Assembly: GCF_025273675.1 (NCBI RefSeq)
Contig: NZ_CP045809.1
Location: 3,286,001-3,350,000 of the forward strand
From: Gordonia pseudamarae
GTDB taxonomy: Bacteria > Actinomycetota > Actinomycetes > Mycobacteriales > Mycobacteriaceae
DNA length: 64,000 bases
Direction: 5' to 3'
The notes under the pieces were generated by a model. It was not told the origin of the DNA. It ran no database searches and saw only the letters and a list, made by a program, of their open reading frames with translations. Made by a program: the position numbers and the translations under genes. This document shows, one piece after another, positions 5,860-29,683 of the stretch (position 1 is its first letter; every line of letters starts with the position of its first letter).

Positions 5860-5871
5860 TCCCACTATATG
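5860..5871 (-). promoter_or_regulatory. LtbR/NdgR-type operator in the leuC-ltbR intergenic region
   Basis: The minus strand reads CATATAGTGGGA. This matches the LtbR operator consensus CA(T/C)ATAGTGxGA described for Corynebacterium glutamicum leuC and trpE (recalled, not looked up). A minus-strand -10-like GATACT (5879-5884) lies just upstream for leuC, and a plus-strand TAGTAT (5878-5883) serves the regulator. The two -10 elements overlap back to back, so one bound repressor could affect both genes. Confidence 0.7.
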
Positions 5872-5889
5872 GACAGCTAGTATCGTCCT

Positions 5890-6624
5890 ATGGGAAAGGA
5901 TAGCGCACCCGAGGTCACCAGCGGAATCGGCGTCCTCGATAAATCGGTCACTGTGCTGCGAGCGGTGGCCGACGCTCCGTGCAACCTCGGCGAGCTGTGC
6001 GAGCGGACCGGCCTGCCGCGGGCCACCGCGCACCGTCTCGCCGTCGGCCTGGAATCGCACAGGCTGTTGGCGCGCAACGCTTCCGGAAAATGGTACCCGG
6101 GCCCGGCGCTGGGCGAGCTGGCGTCCTCGGCCCACGACCCGGTGCGCGAGGCCGCGTTGATGGTGCTGCCGCGACTACGTGAGATCACCGGCGAATCGGT
6201 GCAGATCTACCGTCGCGAGGGCACCGAACGTATCTGTGTCGCCGCGATGGAACCGCCCACCGGGCTGCGCGACACCGTGCCGGTGGGCACCCGCTTCCCG
6301 ATGAACGCGGGTTCGGCGGCCAAGGTCCTGGCCGCCTGGACCGAGGGTGCCACGCAGCGGGCGCTACTCTCGGACAGCGTGTTCGGCGAACGCGCACTGC
6401 ACGAGATCCGTCGCCGCGGCTGGGCTCAGAGCGCGGGTGAACGCGCGGCAGGGGTGGCCAGCGTGTCCGCACCGGTACGCGACGCCGCCGGCGAGGTGAT
6501 CGCCGCGATCTCCGTCTCCGGCCCCATCGACAGGATGGGGCGGCGCCCCGGCGCACGCTGGGCGGCCGACCTGCTCGCCGCCGCGGACGCCATCCAGAAG
6601 CGTCTGGCGGCAGGCGAATCCTGA
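5890..6624 (+). CDS. ltbR: IclR-family regulator, probable LtbR/NdgR orthologue
   Basis: This 244-residue IclR-type regulator has an N-terminal winged helix (about residues 10-70, LGELCERTGLPRATAHRLAV) and a C-terminal effector-binding domain (ICVAAMEPPTGLRDTVPVG). IclR proteins divergent from leuCD are LtbR in Corynebacterium and NdgR/AreB in Streptomyces, which control leucine and other amino-acid genes. An LtbR-consensus operator sits 19 nt upstream of the ATG. There is no Shine-Dalgarno. TAGTAT ends 6 nt before the ATG, suggesting leaderless translation and autoregulation. Confidence 0.85.
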   Translation: MGKDSAPEVTSGIGVLDKSVTVLRAVADAPCNLGELCERTGLPRATAHRLAVGLESHRLLARNASGKWYPGPALGELASSAHDPVREAALMVLPRLREITGESVQIYRREGTERICVAAMEPPTGLRDTVPVGTRFPMNAGSAAKVLAAWTEGATQRALLSDSVFGERALHEIRRRGWAQSAGERAAGVASVSAPVRDAAGEVIAAISVSGPIDRMGRRPGARWAADLLAAADAIQKRLAAGES

Positions 6625-6761
6625 CCGCGCGGCCCCGTCGAGGCCACGCGGGGACCCGCACGCGGTAATTCGGATGGATGGCGTCCGCCGGGATTGTCTG
6701 TATTTTCGCGGGGCCCACGTGCGAGGATCTGTGAGAACACCGATTCGAGAGGACCCCGACA

Positions 6762-7697
6762 TTGGGCAACCCGTACGACCCGACACAGTCGGGCAACCCC
6801 CAGCAGTACCCGGGCGGTCAGCAATGGCCGCAGAATCCCGCGCAGAACGTGCCCGGCCAGCAGGCGGGCCACCCCCAGCAGGGATGGCCGGCGCAGGGCG
6901 CAGCGCAGCCGCAACCGAACTGGCCCGGCCAGGGCGGTCCGTATCCGTCGCCGACTCCACCGTCCGGCGGCGGCTCCAAGAAGTTGCTGTGGCTCGGCGG
7001 CGGTGTCGCCGCACTCGTCGTGGTGGCCATCATCGCCCTGGTCCTAGCCCTGACCACCTCGGGCGACGACAACGACTCCGGCAAGCCGGCGCCTGTGGCC
7101 GCGGCCAAGGACCTCGTCCTGTCCGAGTCCGGTTTCCCCAGCTCGGTCGGCGGTGAGTTCTCCACCTCCGACGGCAATGACGACGATGACGATGACGACG
7201 TCACCATCGACAACGACGCGTGCAACAGCATCGTCAACGCCGAGTCGGAGGGGAACCGGGAGAAGGCCTCGCGCGAGCTCACGATCTCGCGCTCGGGTAC
7301 CGGGTCATTCTCCGAGACCTCCTACGAGGCCGAGGTGACCAAACCCGTCGACGGCTCCGAGCTCGACGACTTCGATGACATCGTGTCGAAATGCTCGGAC
7401 TTCACCATGACCATCAACAACGACGGCACGCCGGTCACAGCGACGATGACGATGTCGACATTTTCGGTCCCCGGCATCACCGGCACCTACAAGGCCGCCA
7501 CGATGACGGGCGCCTTCGAGATGAGCGGCGTCAAGGTGAACTTGATCATGCACGTCGTGCTCGGCATCGAACGACAGGTCGGCATCGAGATCACCCACAG
7601 CCTGGTCAGCACCGGCGCCGAGTCCGCATCGGGTGTCGAATCCGATCTGGCATCGATGTTCAACCAGCAGCGCGAACTGATCGCCAACGCGTCCTGA
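6762..7697 (+). CDS. Membrane-anchored protein with Pro/Gln-rich cytoplasmic N-terminus
   Basis: This 311-residue protein begins with a Pro/Gln/Gly-rich segment (residues 1-70). One hydrophobic helix follows (about 75-96, WLGGGVAALVVVAIIALVLA), then an extracytoplasmic domain with a run of seven aspartates and two cysteines (NDACNS and SKCSDF). The layout resembles actinobacterial sensor-domain proteins related to the PknH extracellular domain, but I cannot assign a function. The start is TTG at 6762, supported by GAGAGGA about 8 nt upstream. The same architecture recurs at 44343-45353. Confidence 0.8.
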   Translation: MGNPYDPTQSGNPQQYPGGQQWPQNPAQNVPGQQAGHPQQGWPAQGAAQPQPNWPGQGGPYPSPTPPSGGGSKKLLWLGGGVAALVVVAIIALVLALTTSGDDNDSGKPAPVAAAKDLVLSESGFPSSVGGEFSTSDGNDDDDDDDVTIDNDACNSIVNAESEGNREKASRELTISRSGTGSFSETSYEAEVTKPVDGSELDDFDDIVSKCSDFTMTINNDGTPVTATMTMSTFSVPGITGTYKAATMTGAFEMSGVKVNLIMHVVLGIERQVGIEITHSLVSTGAESASGVESDLASMFNQQRELIANAS

Positions 7698-7725
7698 GCG
7701 CCGACACGATCCCGCCCAGAGGCTG

Positions 7726-7767
7726 AGCGAGGGGGTGTCCACCCGATGTGGTGGACACCCCCTCGCT
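7726..7767. terminator. Strong hairpin terminator
   Basis: An 18-bp perfect stem (7726-7743 with 7750-7767) with a 6-nt loop lies 28 nt after the stop of the membrane protein gene. It faces the minus-strand tRNA genes. Confidence 0.75.
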
Positions 7768-7875
7768 CTGCGTAGATGATCGCTGCACTGTGTTCATGGC
7801 CACCGCCGTGTGTCGCCGATCACCCCGTGGCGATCATCCTCGACGCCCGTGACCGAGCAACGGCCCACACGACGA

Positions 7876-7910
7876 AGATCGACCCTCACCTTGCCGGTGA
7901 GGGTCGATCT
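7876..7910 (-). terminator. Hairpin downstream of tRNA-Glu
   Basis: A 15-bp perfect stem (7876-7890 with 7896-7910) with loop TTGCC lies 6 nt beyond the 3' end of tRNA-Glu and probably ends the tRNA transcript. The 108 bp before it (7768-7875) hold nothing recognisable. Confidence 0.65.
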
Positions 7911-29452: not shown

Positions 29453-29495
29453 TGCACGATCCTCATCTGGTTTGACTGAAACTGCTGCTGACAAC

Positions 29496-29528
29496 AAAAA
29501 ACCCTCGACAGCTGTGCTGTGCGAGGGT
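29496..29528 (-). terminator. ilvB attenuator terminator
   Basis: On the minus strand a stem of about 12 bp (29501-29507 with 29522-29528, plus 29508-29512 with 29516-29520 and one bulged base) is followed by six T. It sits 37 nt after the leader-peptide stop and 43 nt before ilvB. This is a classic intrinsic terminator and the only one in the window with a clear T run. Confidence 0.85.
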
Positions 29529-29564
29529 GGCGCGTCGATGCTGTGAGGTCTACGAAGTGACCGG

Positions 29565-29612
29565 TCAGGCGACGACGCGCCGGCCGATTACTACGAGAAA
29601 CTCAAACTGCAT
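29565..29612 (-). CDS. ilv leader peptide (MQFEFLVVIGRRVVA)
   Basis: This 15-codon frame lies upstream of the attenuator. It contains Leu-Val-Val-Ile and a later Val-Val, so a shortage of charged Leu-, Val- or Ile-tRNA would stall ribosomes in it and prevent the terminator from forming. The C. glutamicum ilvBNC leader peptide has the same length and a similar run of branched-chain codons (recalled). No strong ribosome-binding site is visible. The ATG is 10 nt from the -10 box. Confidence 0.85.
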   Translation of the reverse strand: MQFEFLVVIGRRVVA

Positions 29613-29622
29613 CACGGCAAAC

Positions 29623-29652
29623 ACCGTAGAACCGCACCTACTGCGGAGTCAA
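29623..29652 (-). promoter_or_regulatory. ilvB promoter
   Basis: On the minus strand TTGACT (29647-29652) and TACGGT (29623-29628) are spaced by 18 bp. Transcription would start a few bases before the leader-peptide ATG, as attenuation requires. Confidence 0.65.
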
Positions 29653-29668
29653 ACTCCATCCCAAATAC

Positions 29669-29683
29669 TCCCATATTTTGGGA
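29669..29683. promoter_or_regulatory. Inverted repeat upstream of the ilvB promoter
   Basis: TCCCATATTTTGGGA has the same TCCCA-N5-TGGGA shape as the MFS-promoter site. CATATTTTGGGA matches 10 of 12 positions of the leuC LtbR-type operator. It lies 16 bp upstream of the ilvB -35 and about 75 bp before the divergent PH-domain gene, so it may regulate either. Confidence 0.5.

Follow-up and report, generated by a model that had tools for sequence, protein, structure and literature searches.

Analysis of a window of 64,000 nucleotides from Gordonia pseudamarae (contig NZ_CP045809.1, positions 3,286,001 to 3,350,000 of the forward strand) revealed three predicted operators for the IclR-type regulator LtbR, whose gene is located in this window beside leuC. 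They are situated between leuC and ltbR, in the promoter of a gene encoding a transporter of the major facilitator superfamily (MFS), and upstream of ilvB, the gene for the large subunit of acetolactate synthase. The three sites are real and resemble operators of one regulator, very probably LtbR (5890-6624). In all likelihood LtbR acts at all three promoters, with repression from two boxes at ltbR and the transporter gene, a single upstream site at ilvB, and the transporter as a co-regulated member. The site recurring in front of the transporter gene would link a protein without assigned cargo to the metabolism of branched-chain amino acids. A single LtbR regulon of these promoters had been proposed in the first-pass annotation of this DNA, and conservation within the genus and in other genera lends it support.

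Identification of the three sites

The ltbR gene (5890-6624, plus strand) encodes a protein of 244 amino acids which carries both the DNA-binding and the effector domain of the IclR family (Pfam HTH_IclR and IclR_C). It is divergent from leuC (4242-5753, minus strand; Pfam Aconitase, taken from the list of open reading frames (ORFs)), with a predicted operator between the two genes. An orthologue of ltbR was found in all 59 genomes of the genus, and the MFS protein and ilvB likewise had matches in each of them. The nearest named genome is that of Gordonia amarae, with an MFS protein 87% identical.

A sequence check of the window recovered all three previously noted sequences at their positions. 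The leuC/ltbR operator, O1 (TCCCACTATATGGAC, 5860-5874, no strand assigned), was predicted from the sequence, by pattern search and by matrix. Its minus strand reads CATATAGTGGGA and agrees at 12 of 12 positions with CAYATAGTGRGA, which we take to be the LtbR consensus, so the exact match claimed earlier holds on that strand. Recounted against the same presumed consensus, the MFS promoter site (GTTCCCAAATATTGGGAAC, 15726-15744) and the ilvB-side site (TCCCATATTTTGGGA, 29669-29683) each gave 10 of 12 positions, as had been stated for the 15.7 and 29.7 kb sites. The shape TCCCA-N5-TGGGA, noted before for the MFS and ilvB sites, does not extend in full to O1, of which the right half is TGGAC; hence there is no full palindrome of this kind at leuC/ltbR. 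This palindrome (TCCCAN5TGGGA) occurs at five places in the genome of 5.15 Mb (two for the control pattern read backward), and the MFS and ilvB sites are two of the five. A pattern with less strict arms around an A/T centre (KYCCANWWWNTGGRM) was found at six places (control, two), half of them being the three sites. Both counts exceed what chance would give.

A matrix was derived from the ltbR-promoter sites of 58 of the 59 genus genomes (19 distinct sequences; the contig of the remaining genome starts too close), chosen by a 9-of-15 rule that was written after the promoters had been inspected. Among the 63,986 positions of the window, this matrix placed the leuC/ltbR, MFS and ilvB sites at ranks 1, 2 and 3 with scores of 23.6, 18.8 and 13.3, the next-best position scoring 10.6; the rank-1 site itself belongs to the training set. 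In 17 regions of the genus, together 336 kb, 32 matches exceeded a score of 13: 17 at ltbR, all training sites, 10 at the MFS promoter, five at ilvB and none elsewhere. The genomes compared here are related by descent, and all counts are therefore non-independent.

Conservation of the site at the transporter gene

The MFS transporter gene (15775-16980, plus strand; Pfam MFS_1) encodes 401 amino acids from the ATG at 15775. A -10 element, TAGAAT (15710-15715, plus strand), was predicted by reading the sequence, and the main predicted operator (15728-15742, no strand assigned; palindrome search and matrix) covers the predicted transcription start. A weaker, operator-like box at 15707-15721, 21 bp upstream of the main site, contains the -10 element and ranks fifth in the window with a score of 9.3. 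The first-pass annotation had called for a comparison of orthologous promoters within the genus, and this showed the site to be conserved: with the ltbR-derived matrix, which was not trained on MFS sites, 44 of 59 MFS promoters exceeded the 99% threshold set by 590 dinucleotide-shuffled sequences (11.6; 200 bp each). According to an operator rule written after inspection of the promoters, the box begins downstream of the -10 element, with 18 bp between the two starts in 54 of the 59 and 19 bp in four; for the remaining promoter the script gave 26, yet a TAGTAT is visible by eye 18 bp away. Here ltbR and the MFS gene are some 9.9 kb apart, compared with some 5.6 kb in another genome of the genus (G004).

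Partner boxes were sought with a matrix made from ltbR and ilvB sites only, in which the main genus sites of these two promoters were thus included. For the MFS promoter, the best second offset was -21, with a mean score of 9.2 in the genus and -1.3 in 40 promoters of other genera, against a background near -25. For ltbR it was +21, with means of 0.8 (58 genus promoters) and -2.2 (16 from other genera) against a similar background. At ilvB, +22 was the best distant offset, at -11.8, and +21 gave -14.0 (background -25.8); no clear partner box was found there.

Outside the genus, the MFS protein was matched at 1e-50 in 220 of 251 genomes of the family. Forty promoters from 16 genera were chosen among the matches listed and scanned over 220 bp, and 32 of them scored above the 11.6 level. 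In 20 chosen regions of about 20 kb each, from 18 genera, the top-scoring 15-mer fell in the MFS promoter in 16, and in all 20 this promoter was represented among the three highest; 200 column-permuted matrices gave means of 0.8 (maximum 4) and 2.0 (maximum 8) for these two counts.

A different arrangement was found in a genus (g3) that we take to be Corynebacterium, where 12 of 201 genomes matched the MFS protein at 1e-40 with 37-47% identity. In all 12 (L272-L283) ltbR is divergent from leuC and is followed directly by the MFS gene in the same orientation. An in-frame start of the MFS gene overlaps the ltbR stop codon in 11 of them (six TAATG, three TAGTG and two GTGA) and lies 38 nt beyond it in the twelfth. 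The 200 bp upstream of the MFS gene score at most 2.9 in 11 genomes and 10.3 in one, and from this the gene seems to be read together with ltbR. An own operator in Gordonia and a position behind ltbR in g3 are thus two arrangements that both place the transporter under LtbR, and the link between the two proteins drawn by the first-pass annotation gains weight from this second genus.

Proposed regulation at the three promoters

The promoter elements were read from the sequence, and the signs of regulation were deduced from position alone. LtbR, encoded beside leuC, would bind a 15-bp operator (roughly TYYCA-N5-TGRRM) at the three promoters. The predicted -10 element of ltbR, TAGTAT (5878-5883, plus strand), ends six bases before the ATG, as would be expected of a probably leaderless mRNA. 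This element is immediately preceded by O1, and a second operator-like box, O2 (TATCGTCCTATGGGA, 5881-5895, no strand assigned), follows 21 bp further at the offset peak, with its terminal TGGGA overlying the start codon. In ltbR promoters of other genera, such a pair of boxes can also be recognized by eye. At the ltbR and MFS promoters, boxes 21 bp or two helical turns apart would cover the -10 element and the transcription start, and at ltbR the start codon as well; bound LtbR should therefore block RNA polymerase, with autorepression and repression of the transporter as the expected outcome. As a separate observation, the second codon of ltbR (5890-5895) is GGA or AGA by eye and fits a TGRGA half-site, an overlap of coding and operator sequence.

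The ilvB gene is located at 27479-29407 on the minus strand (Pfam thiamine pyrophosphate (TPP) enzyme domains; 29407 is the chosen cut of the frame). Its predicted promoter (29623-29652, minus strand) consists of a -35 element TTGACT (29647-29652) and a -10 element TACGGT (29623-29628), and the predicted LtbR operator (29669-29683; palindrome search and matrix) is centred at about -60. A leader peptide, MQFEFLVVIGRRVVA (29565-29612), as read from the sequence, precedes a terminator hairpin with a T run (29496-29527, -17.1 kcal/mol), both on the minus strand. Together they have the form of an attenuator, by which the ilvBNC mRNA would additionally be controlled. In 38 of the 59 genus genomes the best match, with scores of 5.2 to 18.7 in the 501-600 bp scanned, ends 15 nt before TTTGAC, a spacing obtained from a scan that left it unfixed. 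Among regions of other genera containing ilvB, 15 of 16 have a top-six match 230-319 bp upstream of the aligned start. A third half-site, TCCCA, was also noted 10 bp beyond the ilvB palindrome, giving a three-box site (29659-29683); visual inspection of G045 showed a comparable arrangement.

A regulator bound at such an upstream position often activates. The single operator, centred near -60 and keeping one spacing to the -35 element in 38 of 59 genus genomes, would perhaps serve for activation of ilvB, and its position as well as the lack of a clear 21-bp partner box argue against repression from this site. LtbR of Corynebacterium glutamicum, however, is described as a repressor (PMC11802643), and repression of ilvB from -60 is an alternative that we take seriously without considering it probable. 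With activation of ilvB, the tandem boxes over the start and the single site near -60 would form a clear architecture in which to study how the same IclR protein might serve as repressor and as activator.

Possible function of the transporter

The structure model of the transporter (pLDDT 85.6) gave sialin, OxlT and DgoT as the top four folds, with TM-scores of 0.74-0.78; NorA and FLVCR1 were also high in the fold list, in which MtEfpA was found too. SV2A, SLC37, GlpT and DgoT were retrieved by profile search. Judged from these models, the relatives by fold and profile appear to be mostly carriers of organic anions. The likeness to OxlT, DgoT and sialin concerns the overall fold, with identities of 14-20%. 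The cut-off was reached for none of the NCBIfam carboxylate MFS families searched (DgoT, OFA, L-lactate), the best score of 79.1 bits being far below a cut-off of 395. In an alignment of 21 homologues, charged residues including R127, R145, R225, H227, D330 and E340 are kept in predicted helices.

The most likely cargo would be a small organic anion tied to the branched-chain pathway, with a branched-chain 2-oxo acid or isopropylmalate ranking ahead of amino acids; the earlier suggestion, transport of branched-chain amino or keto acids, may hold. Because leucine export should rise with plentiful leucine and the transporter would be co-repressed with leuCD, the protein would more likely import a pathway compound or secrete an intermediate than export leucine. 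The metabolic context and this short list of candidates would apply to an uncharacterised transporter matched in 220 of the 251 family genomes. Tentatively, and with doubt prevailing, the protein could be a dedicated carrier of branched-chain 2-oxo acids or isopropylmalate and a family-wide core target of LtbR, of which the mycobacterial orthologue has been misfiled as a drug pump.

For the comparison with Mycobacterium tuberculosis, Rv2989 was assumed to be the orthologue of ltbR and Rv2994 that of the MFS gene; the only computed support for these counterparts is the Pfam name of a neighbouring gene, Rv2993c-like_N. Rv2994 has been classed with efflux genes, and its expression was higher in nine multidrug-resistant than in ten sensitive isolates (PMC4335044), which together with NorA and MtEfpA in the fold list would speak for a general drug efflux pump that merely shares the regulator. 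Differences in expression are no evidence of cargo, however, and the top four folds are organic-anion carriers, as the profile search with SV2A, SLC37, GlpT and DgoT also indicates. Regulation and gene order moreover point to leucine metabolism, and a drug pump is therefore considered unlikely.

Knowledge of the transport of 2-ketoisocaproate (KIC) is described as very limited (PMC4353348). In the same work, the MFS gene cg1658 was 35.6-fold up in a KIC-producing C. glutamicum strain deleted for ltbR; among the reported changes, KIC was lowered only by deletion of cg1121, and a deletion of cg1658 is not listed with them (PMC4353348). As a counterpart of the Gordonia transporter cg1658 is a lead only, because orthology is not established and other changes in the strain could explain the rise, and because 189 of the 201 genomes of g3 have no MFS match at 1e-40.

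Extent of the regulon and identity of the regulator

Several observations weigh against a conserved regulon of three promoters. Within the genus, 15 of 59 MFS promoters fall below the shuffle level, the best match in several being the -10 box, and the MFS match exceeds 13 in only 10 of the 17 regions. The ilvB site is absent from 21 of 59 genus genomes, where the best match scores 9.2 or less and lies elsewhere. In other genera, eight of the 40 chosen MFS promoters fail the 11.6 level, among them both of genus g4 (-6.5 and 6.6); the third rank of the MFS promoter in L268 rests on a score of only 6.6, and with the Gordonia-trained matrix the ltbR/leuC site reaches the top six in a part of the scanned regions only. 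No site was found upstream of leuA, ilvE, ilvD, serA-leuB and ilvC in this genome (best score 6.0), in which it also differs from the NdgR regulon. Finally, in a chromatin immunoprecipitation sequencing (ChIP-seq) set, Rv2989 is one of the regulators for which over 50 bound promoter sites are counted (PMC10312376), a misfit with a regulon of three promoters.

The absence of the ilvB operator may represent a loss, since 15 of 16 regions from other genera have a match. Genomes without this operator include L129, L130, L135 and L136, and those inspected retain the promoter and the leader. The description of the regulon as small agrees with the sequence of this genome and is at odds with the more than 50 promoter sites of the mycobacterial orthologue (PMC10312376). 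The mycobacterial regulon may be larger than the one here, and the link between the MFS gene and LtbR may already be present in the Rv2989 ChIP-seq data.

Candidates for a wider regulon were searched in the genome and discarded. With TCYCANNWNNTGRRM, 29 matches were obtained versus 21 for the control, and five of the 29 correspond to the three sites. Three pattern searches gave 29 loci outside the three sites, with a top score of 12.3; 22 are located inside ORFs with high GC content at third codon positions (GC3) and seven are not, by a crude rule under which the MFS and ilvB sites, too, count as covered. TCTCAAAAAATGAAA was found in L229, L232, L233 and L239 (1501-1515); the two that were checked are 16S-23S spacers, and the likeness is probably due to chance.

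Motifs within the IclR family are alike (PMC8222616), and a loose search with ltbR gave 42 candidates in the genome, so that the MFS and ilvB sites could be bound by another protein of this family with a similar motif. Only one of these candidates passes 1e-60, however. Both sites are found by a matrix made from the ltbR-promoter sites alone, the MFS gene follows ltbR in g3, and NdgR binds ilvB in Streptomyces coelicolor (PMC4340878), all of which makes LtbR the preferred binder and another IclR protein very improbable.

The first-pass annotation had left open whether the 29.7 kb site belongs to ilvBNC or to the divergent cfp6-like gene; the balance leans to ilvB, because the best match lies 15 nt before TTTGAC in 38 of 59 genomes and the distance to cfp6 varies. 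In 37 of these 38 genomes a start-codon-like string of cfp6, used as proxy with a pattern that fixes the 15-nt spacing to TTTGAC, is located 15 to 103 nt from the site; one genome has a second candidate at 123 nt and one has none, and the spacing to the cfp6 start is thus not fixed. Although the site does lie between ilvB and the cfp6-like gene with ilvD next, these distances, the recurrent position before the ilvB promoter and the lack of a site directly upstream of ilvD leave hardly any likelihood that it serves cfp6, and perhaps ilvD behind it, instead of ilvB. The ilvD gene itself is located at 30763-32547 on the plus strand, behind the cfp6-like gene, and its upstream region carries no LtbR site.

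Comparison with known systems

The Gordonia operator matches the presumed consensus of C. glutamicum LtbR. As in Gordonia, the IclR gene of C. glutamicum adjoins leuC, with sites in the -10 region, and LtbR represses leuCD (PMC11802643). The regulon is described there with leuCD and trp genes, and the passages on LtbR name no MFS target (PMC11802643); a further difference is that Gordonia leuA and serA-leuB are without a site. NdgR of S. coelicolor binds the ndgR-leuC region and ilvB through a 15-bp motif, likewise an imperfect palindrome in a similar layout, whereas its half-site is mostly GTCCA, its regulon comprises 34 genes including sulfur metabolism, and Table 2 of that report names no MFS gene (PMC4340878). 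Tandem palindromes 18-22 nt apart, interpreted as binding of a tetramer, are described for the IclR family (PMC8222616) and resemble the boxes 21 bp apart in Gordonia, where the pair differs in that one box itself holds the -10 element or the start codon.

The leuC targets of LtbR and NdgR, and ilvB for NdgR, were thus reported before (PMC4340878, PMC11802643). In the literature passages covered on LtbR, NdgR, Rv2989, Rv2994 and IclR proteins with leuC, no LtbR control of this transporter was found, nor was a paper naming both Rv2989 and Rv2994. The transporter as a widely conserved, predicted target of LtbR therefore appears to be new.

Other features of the window

A scan of positions 1-40000 of the window against Rfam found nothing besides two tRNA genes, which are located at 7917-7989 and 8092-8163 on the minus strand, between ltbR and gltX. 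Between gltX and an FAH gene, an ORF of 1194 amino acids with Big_9 and cadherin-like domains is situated at 9838-13419.

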